Source of the DNA: Akkermansia muciniphila
GTDB lineage: Bacteria; Verrucomicrobiota; Verrucomicrobiia; Opitutales; Opitutaceae
Direction: 5' to 3'
Length of the DNA stretch: 64,000 nucleotides
NCBI GenBank assembly: GCA_945898185.1
Contig: CAMDHP010000001.1
Span: 26,534-90,533, forward strand
Of the stretch, positions 51,331 through 58,822 are shown one piece after another. Position 1 is the stretch's first letter. Every line of letters starts with the position of its first letter. Made by a program: the position numbers and the translations under genes. The notes beneath the pieces were generated by a model. That model ran no database searches. It saw nothing but the letters and a program-made list of their open reading frames with translations, and was not told where the DNA came from.

Positions 51331-51538
51331 CGCAGGATTTTGTGCAGCTCAGGCGCGAACGACGCGAAGTCAATCAGCGCACTCCGGACGGCCGCTTTTG
51401 CCGGCGAAGAGGGTGCCTTGTCGGTCTTTGTGCAGATTCACGAAAAAATATCTGGGATTTGACGAAACACGCCTTGGCTGTTGCCAGCCCTGAGCCAAAG
51501 TGTCCGCTTGGTTTCAATATCCCTTCATCTTTAAAACT

Positions 51539-52483
51539 ATGTCCTCTCCTGTCGAAAACGTCGTAATCATAGGCACCGGTTGCGCCGGCCTCACCGCCGC
51601 CATCTACGCTGCCCGATCCAACCTCAACCCGCTGGTGCTTGAGGGGCCCCTGCCGGGCGGCCAGCTCACCACCACCAGCGAGGTGGAGAACTTCCCCGGC
51701 TTTGCGCACGGGGTAGACGGTTTTCAACTCACCCAAAACATGCGCGAGCAGGCCACGCGCTTCGGCACCCGTTTTGAGCAAGCCCTCGTCACCGCCGTGG
51801 ACTTCACGGCTTCCCCGCGCAAACTTGTGGTTGGCGATCGTGAGATTTTTGCCAAGTCCGTCATCATCGCCACTGGCGCCTCGCCACGCATGACCGGCAT
51901 CCCCGGCGAGAAGGAACTCTACGGCGGCAAGGGAGTGACGACCTGCGCGACCTGCGACGGCGCCTTCTACCGCAAAATGGAGGTCGCGGTGCTCGGCGGC
52001 GGCGACAGCGCGGCCGAGGAGGCCCTTTTCCTCACCCGCTTCGCCAGCAAAGTTTACCTGGTGCACCGCCGCGACTCGTTGCGCGCCTCCAAGATCATGT
52101 CCGACCGCGCGACCTCTCACGAAAAAATCCAGATGGTCTGGGACACCGTGCCGGTCGAGGTTTTGGGCGTTCCCGAGGGCTTGGTGAGTGGCCTGAAGGT
52201 TAAAAACCTAAAAACCGGCATCGAGTCCGTGCTGCCCGTGAAAGGCGTCTTCGTCGCCATCGGCCATACGCCGAACACGGGTCCGTTCACCCCTGCGATC
52301 GCGGTGGACGAGGGCGGCTATTTCAAACCCGCAGCGGGCTCGCAGGTGCAGACGAACATCCCCGGCGTCTACGTCGCGGGGGACTGCTCCGACCACGTTT
52401 ACCGCCAGGCCATCACTGCCGCCGGCATGGGCTGCCAGGCCGCCATCGAAGCCGAACGCTGGCTCGCCGAACGCGAAGGCTGA
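51539..52483 (+). CDS. trxB: Thioredoxin reductase
   Basis: [62 protein letters not shown]. Confidence 0.96.
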
Positions 52484-52648
52484 GCCCCGCGCTTCCTAAA
52501 CCCCCGCATCGTTCTTGTCGTCGGATACATCGTCCTTATCGCCACAAGGAAGATGTTGTTCGAGGTGAGATCCGCGGGATTACCTAAGGAGCGCAGTCCT
52601 GCCCGTTGCCCTTATCCCATTTCCCGAGGAAACATGCCGAAAGCCTAT

Positions 52649-52692
52649 TTAGAATAATTCCAATTCGCACTTGCTGTTTAGAATGATTCTCG
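52649..52692 (+). promoter_or_regulatory. Candidate twin Fur/PerR-like boxes
   Basis: TTAGAATAATTCCAA (52649..52663) and TTAGAATGATTCTCG (52678..52692), 29 bp apart, upstream of the Fur-family gene. Confidence 0.5.
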
Positions 52693-52734
52693 TTCTCTGC
52701 GTCTCCGTTTAAGCTTTTCCTATTCCATTTTTGC

Positions 52735-53181
52735 ATGCGCCCCACCTCCGAAGATCAGCCCGCCAACCTTGCCGAACGCTTGGAGCACCGCGGTTTGCGT
52801 AATACCACCCAGCGCGAGGTCATTTATCGGGCCTTGCACGAGCGTCGCGACCACCCGACCGCCGACGAGGTTCACGCCCGTGTTCGTCCCGACCTGCCGT
52901 CCATCTCTCTCGCCACGGTTTACAACTGCCTCGAAACCCTCGTGCAGTGCGATCTCGTCCGCCAGGTAAACTTCGAGCGCGAGCCCACCCGCTACTGTCC
53001 TAATCTTAAGCCACACGCCCACTTCCACGATCAGGCCACCGGCTCCACCCTCGACATTGATCTGCCGCCCGAGCTTCTCGCTCAGGTAAAAGCAATCCTG
53101 CCCGCGAGCTACCAAGCCGACTTCGTCGAGATCACCTTCCACGGCCGGACCACGACGAAACTAGTTCCAAGCACCAAGTAA
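52735..53181 (+). CDS. Fur-family transcriptional regulator lacking canonical CxxC
   Basis: [70 protein letters not shown] where CxxC is expected. Confidence 0.9.
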
Positions 53182-53239
53182 CCAGCTGCTAGCGACTCGT
53201 CCTCCCTTCAACTTAATCTTTCAACTTAAACTTTTCATC

Positions 53240-54004
53240 ATGCCATCCCTCGAAATCCGCGATCTCTTCGTCGCCCTCTCCGCGACTCCCGACAAGCCCA
53301 TTGTAAAGGGTCTTACCCTCACGATTCGCACCGGCGAGGTGCATGCCATCATGGGGCCAAACGGCACCGGCAAATCCACCCTTTCCAAGGCCATCGCCGG
53401 CCATCCCGACTACGTCATCACCTCCGGCGACGTCCTCCTCGACGGCAAGTCCATCCTCGCGATGGAGCCCGACCAGCGCGCCCGCGCCGGCATTTTCCTC
53501 GCCTTCCAATACCCGTCCGAAATCCCCGGTGTCACCATCGCCAACTTCGTCCGTGCCGCCGTCCAAGCCCGCCTCGCCGAGGGCGAGGACCTCGACGCCA
53601 CCGCTTACTACAAGCGGCTCTACTCCAAGATGGATCTCCTTAAGATCGACCGGAAGTTCACTTCCCGCGCGGTCAACGAGGGCTTTTCCGGCGGCGAGAA
53701 AAAGCGCTGCGAAATCCTCCAGATGGCGATGCTTGAGCCCACTTTCGCCCTCATGGACGAAACCGACTCCGGCCTCGACATTGACGCTCTCCGCATCGTC
53801 GCCGAGGGCGTCGAGGCCATGCGCGGCGACAAGTTTGGCGTCATGCTCATCACCCACTATCAACGTCTGCTCGACTACATCGTGCCCGACTTCGTTCACG
53901 TGATGTATGACGGCCGCATCGTAAAATCCGGCGACAAGTCCCTCGCTCTCGAACTCGAGGCCAAGGGCTACGACTGGATCAAACAAGAACTCGCCACCGC
54001 CTAA
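53240..54004 (+). CDS. sufC: Fe-S assembly ATPase SufC
   Basis: [67 protein letters not shown]. Confidence 0.97.
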
Positions 54005-54062: not shown

Positions 54063-55538
54063 ATGAAGCCTCCTTCCGATCTCCTCGCCCCACCCGACGC
54101 CCTCCTCGAATCCGAGGCAGACACTTCCGTCGCCATGGAAAACCCCACCGTCGGCATCGACCAAACCGCCGGCGACTTCACCTACGACGTCAAATACGCC
54201 TATGACGCCGGCTCCGGTCTCTCCGAAGACACCATCCGCTACATCTCCGACGTCAAAAAGGAGGCCTCCTGGATCCTCGATTTCCGTCTGAAGGCCTACC
54301 AGACCTTCCTCTCCAAGCCCATGCCCACCCACTGGGCGACCAAGGACCTCGAGAACATCGATTTTAACAAAATCCGCTACTACCTCTCCCAAGGCACCAA
54401 GCCCAAACGCACGTGGGATGAGGTCCCGGACGACATCAAAAAGACCTTTGAGCGCCTCGGCATCCCCGAGCAGGAGCGCAAGTTCCTCGCTGGCGTCGAG
54501 GCCCAGTTCGACAGCGAGGCCGCGTATTCAAACGTCAAGGACATCGTCGCCAAGCAGGGCGTCATCTTCTGTAACTCCACCGAGGCCCTCCGCGAGCACC
54601 CCGAGCTCTTCCGCAAGTGGTTCGGCAAGGTCATCCCCACTGGCGACAACAAGTTCTCCGCTCTCAACAGCGCCGTGTTCTCCGGCGGCTCCTTCATCTA
54701 CGTGCCCAAGGGCGTGAAGGTCGCCATGCCGCTCCAGGCCTACTTCCGCATCAACGCGGAAAACTTCGGCCAATTCGAGCGCACCCTCATTATCGCCGAC
54801 GAGGGCGCCGAGGTCACCTATATGGAGGGCTGCACCGCGCCCAAGTTCTCCACCTCCACCCTCCACTCCGCCGTGGTCGAGCTCGTCGCCCTCAAGGGCG
54901 CGAAGATCCAATACATCACCGTCCAAAACTGGGCCAATAACGTGTTTAATCTCGTCACCAAGCGCGCCATCGCCATGGAAGACGCCGAGGTTAAGTGGAT
55001 TGATTGCAACATCGGCAGTCGTCTTACCATGAAGTATCCCGGCGTCATCCTGAAGGGGAAGCGCGCCCGCGGCGAAGTCATCTCCATTGCCCTCGCCAAC
55101 GACGGCCAGCACCAGGTCACCGGCGCCAAGATGGTCCACGCCGCCGACGACACCACCTCCGTCATCGTCGCGAAGTCCATCAGCGTCGGCCAGGGCCGCT
55201 CCACCTACCGCGGCGTCGTCCATATACCGAAGCACTTGAAGGGCTGCAAAAACAACACCGAGTGCGACGCGCTTCTCATCAATTCCAACAGCCGCACCGA
55301 CACCTATCCGGCCATCGTCGTGCGTGGCGACACCCATGCCGTCCAACACGAGGCCAGCGTGTCGAAAATTTCGGAAGACATGATCTTCTACATGCAGCAA
55401 CGCGGCCTCACCGAAGCCCAGGCGATGAGCCTTGCGGTAAACGGCTTCGTCAACGACCTCGTCCGCCAGTTCCCCATGGAATACAGCGTCGAGCTCAAAC
55501 GCCTCATCGACCTCGAAATGGAAGGCTCCGTCGGCTGA
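54063..55538 (+). CDS. sufB: Fe-S assembly scaffold SufB
   Basis: [71 protein letters not shown]. Confidence 0.97.
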
Positions 55539-55648: not shown

Positions 55649-56965
55649 ATGTCCGCTCCCGCCCTTTCCTCCTCCGCCCTCCCCGGCCTCGACTCCGTAC
55701 TCTTCGCCGCCCACCTTTCCGAGCGCGCCTCCCTGCCCGCCTGGTGGCTCGAAGCCAAGAAGGCCGCGTGGAACCAGTTCCTCGCCCTTCCCCAGCCCTC
55801 GCGCACCGATGAGAACTGGCGCTTCTCCAATCTAAAGGATCTCAATCTCGACGGCTTCACCCTGCCCGAGGACGCCTCGCAAAAGATCGCCAGCTCCGCG
55901 ACCTTCCCGCAGACCGCCGAGCTCGTCTTCTCGAATCGCCAGCTCGTCACCCGCAGCACCTTACCCGCCGACCTCGCCGCCAAAGGCGTAATCTTCGCCC
56001 CGCTCGACGAGGCCCTCCGCGACCATGGCGACCTCGTTAAACAGTATTTCCAAAAACACCCGGCCAGCCTCGGCTCGGAAAAGTTCGTCGCACTCAACAC
56101 CGCGCTCACCGCGTCCGGCGCGTTTCTCTACGTGCCCGCCGGCGTCGAAGTCGCCCTGCCTTTCGTCATCCAGCACACGCTGACCGGGGCAAATGTCGCC
56201 ACCTTCCCGCACACGCTCGTCGTTCTCGGCCCACGCGCCAAGGCCACCGTGGTCGAGTTCTTCGTCTCCGGCGGCACCGCCACCGAGCGCCAGCTCGCCG
56301 CCGGCGTGAACGATCTCCACGCCGCCGAGGGCGCGCAGCTCACCTATGTCGGCGCCCAGCACTGGAGCCGCGAGACCCTTTCCTTTCAGGTCAACAGTAT
56401 CGCCGTCGAGCGCGACGCCCGCGTGCTCGCCCTCAACCTCCACCTCGGCGGCCGCCAATCCCGCCACGAGTCGCACTCCCGCCTCCTCGGCCCGGGAGCG
56501 CACTCCGAGATGCTCGCGCTCACCGTCGCCAGCGGCGCCCGCGAGTTCGACCAGCGCACGCTCCAGACCCACATCGCGCCCAACACCACGTCGAACCTGC
56601 TCTACAAAAACGCCCTGCTCGACACCGCGAAGACAATTTTCTCCGGCCTCATCATCGTCGAGCCCGACGCGCAAAAGACCGACGCCTATCAGAAAAACCG
56701 CAACCTGATGCTCAGCGACGAAGCCGAGGCCCACAGTCTGCCCGGCTTGGAAATCCGGGCCAACGACGTGCGTTGCAGCCACGGCAGCACCAGCGCCCGC
56801 ATAGATTCCGAGCAGGAGTTCTACCTCCAAGCCCGCGGCATCAACCCGACCGAAGCCCGCCGCCTGCTCGTCTCCGCCTTCTTCGAGGAAGTCCTCAACA
56901 AGCTCGACGACGAAGTGCTCCACTCCGCCTTGACCGCCCTCATCGCCAGCCAGTTTAAGAGATAG
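55649..56965 (+). CDS. sufD: Fe-S assembly protein SufD
   Basis: TDENWRFSNLKDL, FLYVPAGVEVALPFVIQH, ANDVRCSHGSTSARIDSEQEFYLQARGINPTEARRLLVSAFFEEVLN. Confidence 0.95.
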   Translation: MSAPALSSSALPGLDSVLFAAHLSERASLPAWWLEAKKAAWNQFLALPQPSRTDENWRFSNLKDLNLDGFTLPEDASQKIASSATFPQTAELVFSNRQLVTRSTLPADLAAKGVIFAPLDEALRDHGDLVKQYFQKHPASLGSEKFVALNTALTASGAFLYVPAGVEVALPFVIQHTLTGANVATFPHTLVVLGPRAKATVVEFFVSGGTATERQLAAGVNDLHAAEGAQLTYVGAQHWSRETLSFQVNSIAVERDARVLALNLHLGGRQSRHESHSRLLGPGAHSEMLALTVASGAREFDQRTLQTHIAPNTTSNLLYKNALLDTAKTIFSGLIIVEPDAQKTDAYQKNRNLMLSDEAEAHSLPGLEIRANDVRCSHGSTSARIDSEQEFYLQARGINPTEARRLLVSAFFEEVLNKLDDEVLHSALTALIASQFKR

Positions 56966-56998: not shown

Positions 56999-58328
56999 AT
57001 GGATCTTGCCGCAGGCAACTCTGCCGCGTCGTCGGACCGCATCACCGACCTCGGCCTCGGCAAAGCAGTCGCCGACGGCGACGGCACAAGACCGGCCTGC
57101 GCCGGAGACAGCGACAGCACGAATGCCAACCGCACCTACGGCATCACCCGGCGCGGTCTCACCACCGGTGTGAACTTGCACATGATCGTGAGCACCGCCG
57201 CCTCCCAAGAGCAGGACGACCACAACAACCCGTCCATCACCGTGCTGCCGGACGGCAAGCTCCTGATTCTCTGATCCAAACAAAACAGCACCGCCGCCTA
57301 ATATCAGCGCACTTCGCTCGTGCCGCTGCCCACCACCGCCGCCGATTGGGGGCCGGAAATTACGCGCAACGTCGCGGCCTCGAACACTTACGCCAACACC
57401 TACCGGCTCAGCGCAGAGGCCAACGCGCTCTATAACTTCCACCGCTGCGTGAACTTCAACCCCACGCTCACCCTTTCGACCGACAACGGCGCGTCATGGG
57501 GCACCGCCCGCCTGCTTATCGGCACTGGCGCGGGCGGCATCCGCCCCTACCCGCGCTACTGCTCCAACGGGGTGGACCGCGTTGATCTCATCTCCACCGA
57601 ATGCCATCCGCGCGACGTCGCGAATTCCGTTTACCACATGTATAACCCGCCGGTTCGTTTTACAAAACCGACGGAACCTTCATCAAATCCCTCGCCAACC
57701 TACCGCTCGACCAAGACGCCGGCGAGCGCGGCAGCGTGCTCTACTCCTACTCCGAGGCGGCGTGGGGCGCCGGGCAGGGCCCCAACGACTGGGTCCTCAC
57801 CGGACGCGGCTGGACCCGGGACGTCCACTACGGCCAGGACGGCGCACCGATCGCGGTTTTCCAAGTGCAGCGCGACGATCAAAACGCTAACGACTGGAAA
57901 AAGATCGCATCTACTACTGCTACGCACGCTGGACCGGCGCCAGGTGGGAACGTCGCTTTATCGCGCAAGGCGGCAGACCGATTTACGCGGCGGAGGACGA
58001 CTACGGAGGCGCCAAGTGCCTCGACTCGGAGGATCCGCGCGTCGTCTATTTCTCCACCAACACCGCCACCCCGCTGGACGTAAGCCGCATTGATAACGTG
58101 GCCCTGAACGCGAACGAACGCTACGAACTCTATCGCGGCTTCACCGCCGACGGCGGCCTCACTTTCACGTGGACGCAGGTCACCGCGAACTCCGACGCGG
58201 AAAACCTTCGTGCTATCGTCCCGGACAAACACGGGCGCACGGAATGCCTGCTATGGTTCAACGGCACCTACACCACCTAAGCCCGTTTCTCCACCCGCGT
58301 GCTGGCGCGCATAGGCACTTCTCGTTGA
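56999..58328 (+). pseudogene. Degraded BNR-repeat (sialidase-like) secreted protein gene
   Basis: QDDHNNPSITVLPDGKLLIL*SKQNSTAA*YQRTSLVPLPTTAADWGPE.. (frame 2), continues [36 protein letters not shown].. (frame 1), then [24 protein letters not shown].. (frame 3). Three in-frame stops and two frameshifts. Confidence 0.85.
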
Positions 58329-58738: not shown

Positions 58739-58822
58739 TGGTGCCCGGGACAGGACTCGAACCTGCACACCTTACGGCAAAGGCTTCTAAGACCTTCGTG
58801 TCTGCCATTCCACCACCCGGGC
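58739..58822 (-). tRNA. tRNA-Leu(UAG), CCA encoded
   Basis: Reverse complement GCCCGGGTGGTGGAATGGCAGACACGAAGGTCTTAGAAGCCTTTGCCGTAAGGTGTGCAGGTTCGAGTCCTGTCCCGGGCACCA; anticodon loop CTTAGAA, long variable arm. Confidence 0.95.

Follow-up and report, generated by a model that had tools for sequence, protein, structure and literature searches.

A suf-linked lineage of the Fur family with a cysteine in its putative regulatory metal site in Opitutales-type Verrucomicrobiota

The window analysed here is a stretch of 64,000 nucleotides from a draft genome of Akkermansia muciniphila (2.26 Mb, 132 contigs, 92% complete, two Fur-family genes). It contains the gene for a Fur-family regulator, which is followed on the same strand by sufC, sufB and sufD and preceded by two palindromic boxes. 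The features of the locus are the following:

52649..52663, plus strand: putative operator box 1, TTAGAATAATTCCAA, a 7-1-7 palindrome centred 79 bp upstream of the start codon of the regulator gene
52678..52692, plus strand: putative operator box 2, TTAGAATGATTCTCG, with its centre 50 bp before the start codon and 29 bp after box 1
52735..53181, plus strand: suf-linked Fur-family regulator gene, 148 aa (Pfam FUR, AlphaFold2 model, Foldseek, conservation in 218 sequences)
Within the protein: H40, C88, H94, H96 and D107, the putative regulatory-site residues according to the alignment to B. subtilis PerR
52996..53022, plus strand: codons C88-P89-N-L-K-P-H94-A-H96, the cysteine half of the putative regulatory metal site, aligning with PerR D85, H91 and H93
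53029..53040, plus strand: codons D99-Q-A-T102, the CxxC position of other Fur proteins (CxxC kept in 18 of 218 suf-linked orthologues)
53240..54004, plus strand: sufC (TIGR01978, 341 bits, cut-off 212.8)
54063..55538, plus strand: sufB (TIGR01980, 636 bits, cut-off 346.4)
55649..56965, plus strand: sufD (TIGR01981, 256 bits, cut-off 222)

The three suf genes were called as NCBIfam equivalogs, each with a score above the cut-off. sufC starts at 53240, 58 bp past the stop codon of the regulator gene, and this bears out the earlier sequence-only reading, which had placed the regulator before sufCBD on the same strand. An orthologue with 41–71% identity is encoded in about 90 of the 132 genomes of the order, located 14–170 bp upstream of sufC in the same orientation; the single exception lies at a contig end. 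Orthologues at the level of the class are nearly all found directly before sufC as well, and this arrangement is seen in 79 of the 80 named loci, the remaining one stopping at the contig edge. Most of the named relatives are Opitutaceae (Opitutus, Cephaloticoccus, Ereboglobus). With so many orthologues, nearly all of them directly 5′ of sufC, the regulator gene is not a chance ORF. The linkage is fixed, and most Opitutales-type bacteria, as well as many sampled relatives, have the regulator gene at the head of the suf operon. More remote relatives from the phylum have neither the suf linkage nor a Cys at position 88.

The gene for thioredoxin reductase (trxB, 51500–52483) is located directly 5′ of the window regulator on the same strand. 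This gene order recurs in family f8 and in several relatives that belong to the family of the window (e.g., L032, L038, L041, L056, L093, L097, L101), with the operator in the gap, and trxB may be functionally linked to the regulator. On the 3′ side of sufD, positions 56999–58090 hold fragments in different frames with one weak BNR_4 match (20.1 bits, under the cut-off), possibly a decayed BNR-repeat gene. No tRNA was found in the window apart from a tRNA-Leu on the minus strand (58739–58822).

The regulator matched the Pfam FUR profile (PF01475) with 74.7 bits at a cut-off of 23.1, which assigns it to the Fur superfamily. Its AlphaFold2 model, calculated for the monomer from an alignment of 57 sequences, reached a mean pLDDT of 91, and Foldseek matched this model to Fur, Mur and PerR structures with prob 1.00. 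The best PDB profile match was PerR from B. subtilis (2fe3/3f8n, 109.7 bits). Together with the confirmed letters of the recognition helix, the Pfam match upholds the earlier description of a Fur-family protein with an intact helix, and membership in this family is established. The NCBIfam equivalogs for PerR, Irr, Fur and Zur all scored the protein below their cut-offs: the best value for PerR was 76.5 bits versus a cut-off of 180, and the models IrrA/Irr gave 59.3 bits versus 150 and 52 bits versus 170. The second Fur paralogue of the genome (L002, G000:C7:5344-5703) has a YR helix and one CxxC, and it lacks HxH at the usual place, which reads AQVICLDC; paralogues of this kind are seen repeatedly in the order.

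In the alignment, H37, D85, H91, H93 and D104 of B. subtilis PerR correspond to H40, C88, H94, H96 and D107 of the window regulator, which has exactly three cysteines (C65, C72 and C88). H40, N64, H96 and D107 are invariant among the 218 suf-linked sequences, and H94 is present in 214 of them. Position 88, which is Asp in PerR and Glu in Fur, is occupied by Cys in 209 sequences, by Glu in eight and by Asp in one. All of these are ligand-type residues, which argues for C88 as a metal ligand. The sequence-only reading had expected His and Asp ligands only; the presence of Cys in the regulatory site speaks against this, and a thiolate at the metal could favour Zn2+ or another cofactor. C65 is kept in 211 and C72 in 172 of the 218 sequences, and Pro follows C88 in 185, with Ala in its place in 26. 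According to the diagnostic residues for PerR (taken from PMC8638851), the lineage has the Asn of helix H4 (N64, equivalent to N61 in B. subtilis) and Asp, not Glu, at position 104 of PerR, the residue linked to H2O2 sensitivity. Of the PerR ligand set H37-D85-H91-H93-D104 four members are kept and D85 is replaced, in most cases by Cys. The HxH motif of Irr is present, as is the Cys-x5-His-x-His motif of Zur, with a spacing equal to that in S. coelicolor Zur.

As the sequence-only reading had stated, the window regulator has no CxxC, neither at the H-x-H region nor at the C-terminus. The loss is not a defining trait of the lineage, however, since orthologues from family f24 of the order and from several families of the class retain CxxC...CxxC in the same suf-linked place. 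Most members of family f11 have three of the four Cys left, many other sequences have C99 alone, and the family of the window has D99. In a tree calculated after removal of the CxxC columns, no fewer than three changes of this site are required by the starred branches, and loss in a single clade was rejected (p-AU 0.024). On these grounds we consider the loss to be secondary, and it has occurred repeatedly. CxxC is also missing from the Mur and Irr sequences compared here, and the structural CxxC is missing from PerRA and PerRB of Leptospira (PMC8638851).

The suf-linked proteins formed one side of a branch (88/95, and 97/90 in a second tree), in the part of the Fur tree that holds PerR and Irr. 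In AU tests, union with Rhizobium Mur (p=1e-12) and with Streptomyces coelicolor Zur (p=0.0008) was rejected. The tests did not reject union with PerR of B. subtilis/S. pyogenes (p=0.176), with Leptospira PerR (p=0.33), or with Irr (p=0.415), which forms a starred clade of its own (100/99). Of the Irr, PerR or Mur type proposed from the letters alone, the PerR/Irr side is thus retained and membership in Mur is rejected. We regard the suf-linked proteins, on the strength of these trees, as a distinct lineage in the PerR/Irr part of the family, apart from Mur and Zur.

When the upstream regions of 135 orthologues were searched for 7-1-7 palindromes with up to three mismatches to TTAGAATNATTCTAA, the palindromic box TTRGAATNATTCYAA was found in 119 of them, and in 104 with no more than two mismatches. 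Coding controls of equal size had no box at up to four mismatches (0/135), and shuffled upstream regions reached three mismatches in about 1.5%. The words TTAGAAT and ATTCYAA were strongly enriched upstream, and 23 box pairs with a spacing of 29 bp were counted in loci of the order and class. This palindromic operator is conserved; some distant orthologues, such as L122 and L138, have no recognisable box. The operator is also unique in the genome: with up to one mismatch allowed, no sites other than the two suf boxes of the window occur in 2.26 Mb, and in other genomes of the same family sites with zero mismatches fall mostly at the regulator-suf promoter. Both conserved boxes are spanned by 52640–52700, the stretch that the sequence-only reading had proposed as EMSA target. 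Scans of 52480–53260 for sigma-70 promoters and terminators found none.

The window genome and two genomes from family f8 (G064, G099) encode two Fur proteins each, the second being of the YR helix type, and one-to-one assignment of boxes was limited to these three. Because the only other Fur is of this type, the box can be assigned to the suf-linked regulator, which appears to bind its own promoter. Half-sites and spacing of the box match those of TTAGAAATATTCTAGA, an Irr site before a Rhodobacter suf promoter that was bound in a gel shift (PMC6956336) and is the one experimentally bound Irr site in this comparison.

Exact boxes in other families of the order precede genes for heavy-metal P1B-type ATPases with an SPC motif (f8 and f11; loci L251, L252, L253, L259, L260, L261, L264), and are also found before sufS-sufU, ferritin and a rhodanese-type sulfurtransferase. 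The motif is SPC and not CPC in the boxed ATPases; we take SPC to be the mark of the P1B4 (Fe/Co) group, and these proteins are likely exporters of Fe(II) or Co(II). Where it is known, P1B4 ATPases export Fe(II) under the control of PerR and/or Fur (PMC7762939, PMC9993123). The ATPase box of G064 and G099 is assigned more confidently because these genomes have only the suf-linked Fur and the YR-helix paralogue, and assignment is tentative in f5, f20 and f21 because of further Fur paralogues. In f20 (L245, L246, L249) a box stands before the gene for a PEP-CTERM secreted protein of a family that was not recognised; this gene adjoins hmuS/heme-uptake genes, which were Pfam-confirmed in L249. A box before ahpC (L262) was left out, its genome having no suf-linked orthologue. 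The genes of the putative regulon point to iron or peroxide as the signal, and the combination of ferritin, exporter and suf would fit better to a peroxide or heme logic than to plain iron starvation.

Its place at the head of the suf operon, the apparent binding to its own promoter and the cysteine in the sensing site make the regulator a strong candidate for a dedicated suf controller. Control of the suf operon by a CxxC-less Fur-family protein, as proposed in the sequence-only reading, is very probable in view of the suf linkage and the promoter boxes. That it proceeds without IscR or SufR is not established, because the same genome encodes Rrf2-family genes. One of them (L265, L267; G000:C43, C114) has a cysteine cluster, GCVSQTAYEKCSCPDEVHC; it is found at a contig end next to the gene for a sulfate-binding protein (sulfate transporter) and is a candidate cysteine/Fe-S regulator.

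In S. mutans, Fe2+-loaded PerR represses sufCDSUB (PMC11631912). We consider it moderately probable that the window protein is a dedicated, autoregulating, PerR-like repressor of regulator-sufCBD, which would carry metal at iron sufficiency and come off the DNA when iron is lost or peroxide is present. Binding to the boxes, repression, metal and signal are what we infer here. The regulator dimer would load a divalent metal at H40/C88/H94/H96/D107, most likely Fe2+ and possibly Mn2+, and would then bind one or two TTRGAATNATTCYAA boxes in the promoter and keep the operon repressed. The repressor would leave the DNA when its iron is lost or when peroxide oxidises the iron bound by thiolate and His ligands, and SufBCD would be produced at times when Fe-S clusters disappear or are difficult to assemble.

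The AU value for the grouping with Irr does not reject their union and therefore allows the opposite logic, in which the heme-free protein would bind the boxes and repress suf (in relatives also iron export and storage) at low iron, and heme bound through C88-P89 and HxH would release or destabilise it. The half-sites and spacing shared with the bound Irr site, the conserved HxH, a motif that binds heme in Irr (PMC7762939), the frequent Pro after C88, and a putative regulon that includes ferritin and a metal exporter are in agreement with this. We nevertheless regard it as unlikely, since Irr proteins form a clade of their own, the scores are far under both Irr cut-offs (59/150 and 52/170 bits), and H40 and D107 of the metal site are invariant. 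In addition, one family has Glu instead of C88 and retains both operator and suf linkage, and Ala stands for the Pro in 26 sequences; in view of these replacements a heme motif of the Cys-Pro type is dispensable, and we rejected it as a general feature. It is quite unlikely that C65, C72 and C88, together with D99 or C99, ligate an Fe-S cluster, which would make the protein a counterpart of IscR, SufR and RirA with a Fur fold. The three cysteines are conserved (211, 172 and 209 of 218), the target is an operon for Fe-S assembly, and three conserved Cys are also described for the iron regulator RirA (PMC5863699). However, 46 of the 218 sequences have another residue for C72 (mostly His, Ser, Thr or Ala) and nine have Glu or Asp for C88, with the suf linkage unchanged, and C65 and C72 are predicted in or at the end of the recognition helix H59-71 of the model, an unusual place for cluster ligands.

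A Zur-type sensor that binds Zn2+ with the thiolate of the regulatory site would account for the spacing C88-x5-H94-x-H96, which is exactly the C-x5-H-x-H of S. coelicolor Zur (VYRRCSTGDHHHH). This seems very improbable, as union with Streptomyces Zur is rejected, the putative regulon consists of iron and Fe-S genes with ATPases of the SPC and not the CPC type, and Asn64 of the helix and D107 are PerR/Irr-like. Just as improbable is a plain Fe2+-Fur, an iron-loaded suf repressor with iron starvation as sole signal and no sensing of peroxide. Fe2+ is known as co-repressor of suf for S. mutans PerR (PMC11631912), and in one family the box is found near heme-uptake genes; but D107 instead of Glu and Asn instead of Arg in the helix are PerR residues (PMC8638851), and a starved cell would have little reason to derepress ferritin and an iron exporter.

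The PerR-like reading can be compared with known systems. The helix Asn and the equivalents of H37, H91, H93 and D104 are shared with PerR of B. subtilis and with PerR of S. mutans, which represses suf with Fe2+. In contrast to these, the window lineage has Cys for D85 and is fixed in the suf operon with the operator TTRGAAT-N-ATTCYAA, the window branch has no structural Zn site, and the window regulator stays under all PerR NCBIfam cut-offs. PerRA and PerRB of Leptospira (5nl9; PMC8638851) resemble it in the missing structural CxxC and in the sequence DEKTG (DxxTG in the window regulator), but they have Asp at the C88 position and are a pair of peroxide/virulence regulators with no linkage to suf. 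Irr from Bradyrhizobium and Rhizobium is likewise CxxC-less, with HxH, the helix Asn, a similar palindromic box and suf among its targets; it differs by its separate starred clade, by Asp at the C88 position and by HMM cut-offs that the window regulator does not reach. Mur and Magnetospirillum Fur (5fd6, 4ray), CxxC-less alphaproteobacterial proteins among the top Foldseek matches, have an Arg helix and a Glu ligand, and the AU test rejected union. SufR from cyanobacteria, IscR and RirA are dedicated or principal suf/isc controllers, and SufR, according to PMC11631912, is encoded before its operon and autoregulating; they belong to other protein families and carry Fe-S clusters, and we claim no homology.

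A literature search with partial coverage for Verrucomicrobia/Akkermansia, Fur and suf found no paper, and no suf regulator of Verrucomicrobiota came up in it. For the control of Fe-S assembly in this phylum, the regulator described here offers an answer that can be tested. Its Fur lineage has an unusual Cys-containing metal site, with natural variation (C, E or D) at one of the ligand positions and a natural series of losses of the structural Zn site with all else constant; a single 60-bp probe and purified proteins of small size would suffice to test all of this. Rather doubtful, in our view, is a new type of Fur-family sensor, dedicated to suf, whose Cys-thiolate site would directly read Fe-S, heme or thiol-oxidation status and which would be the equivalent of SufR/IscR in Verrucomicrobiota.
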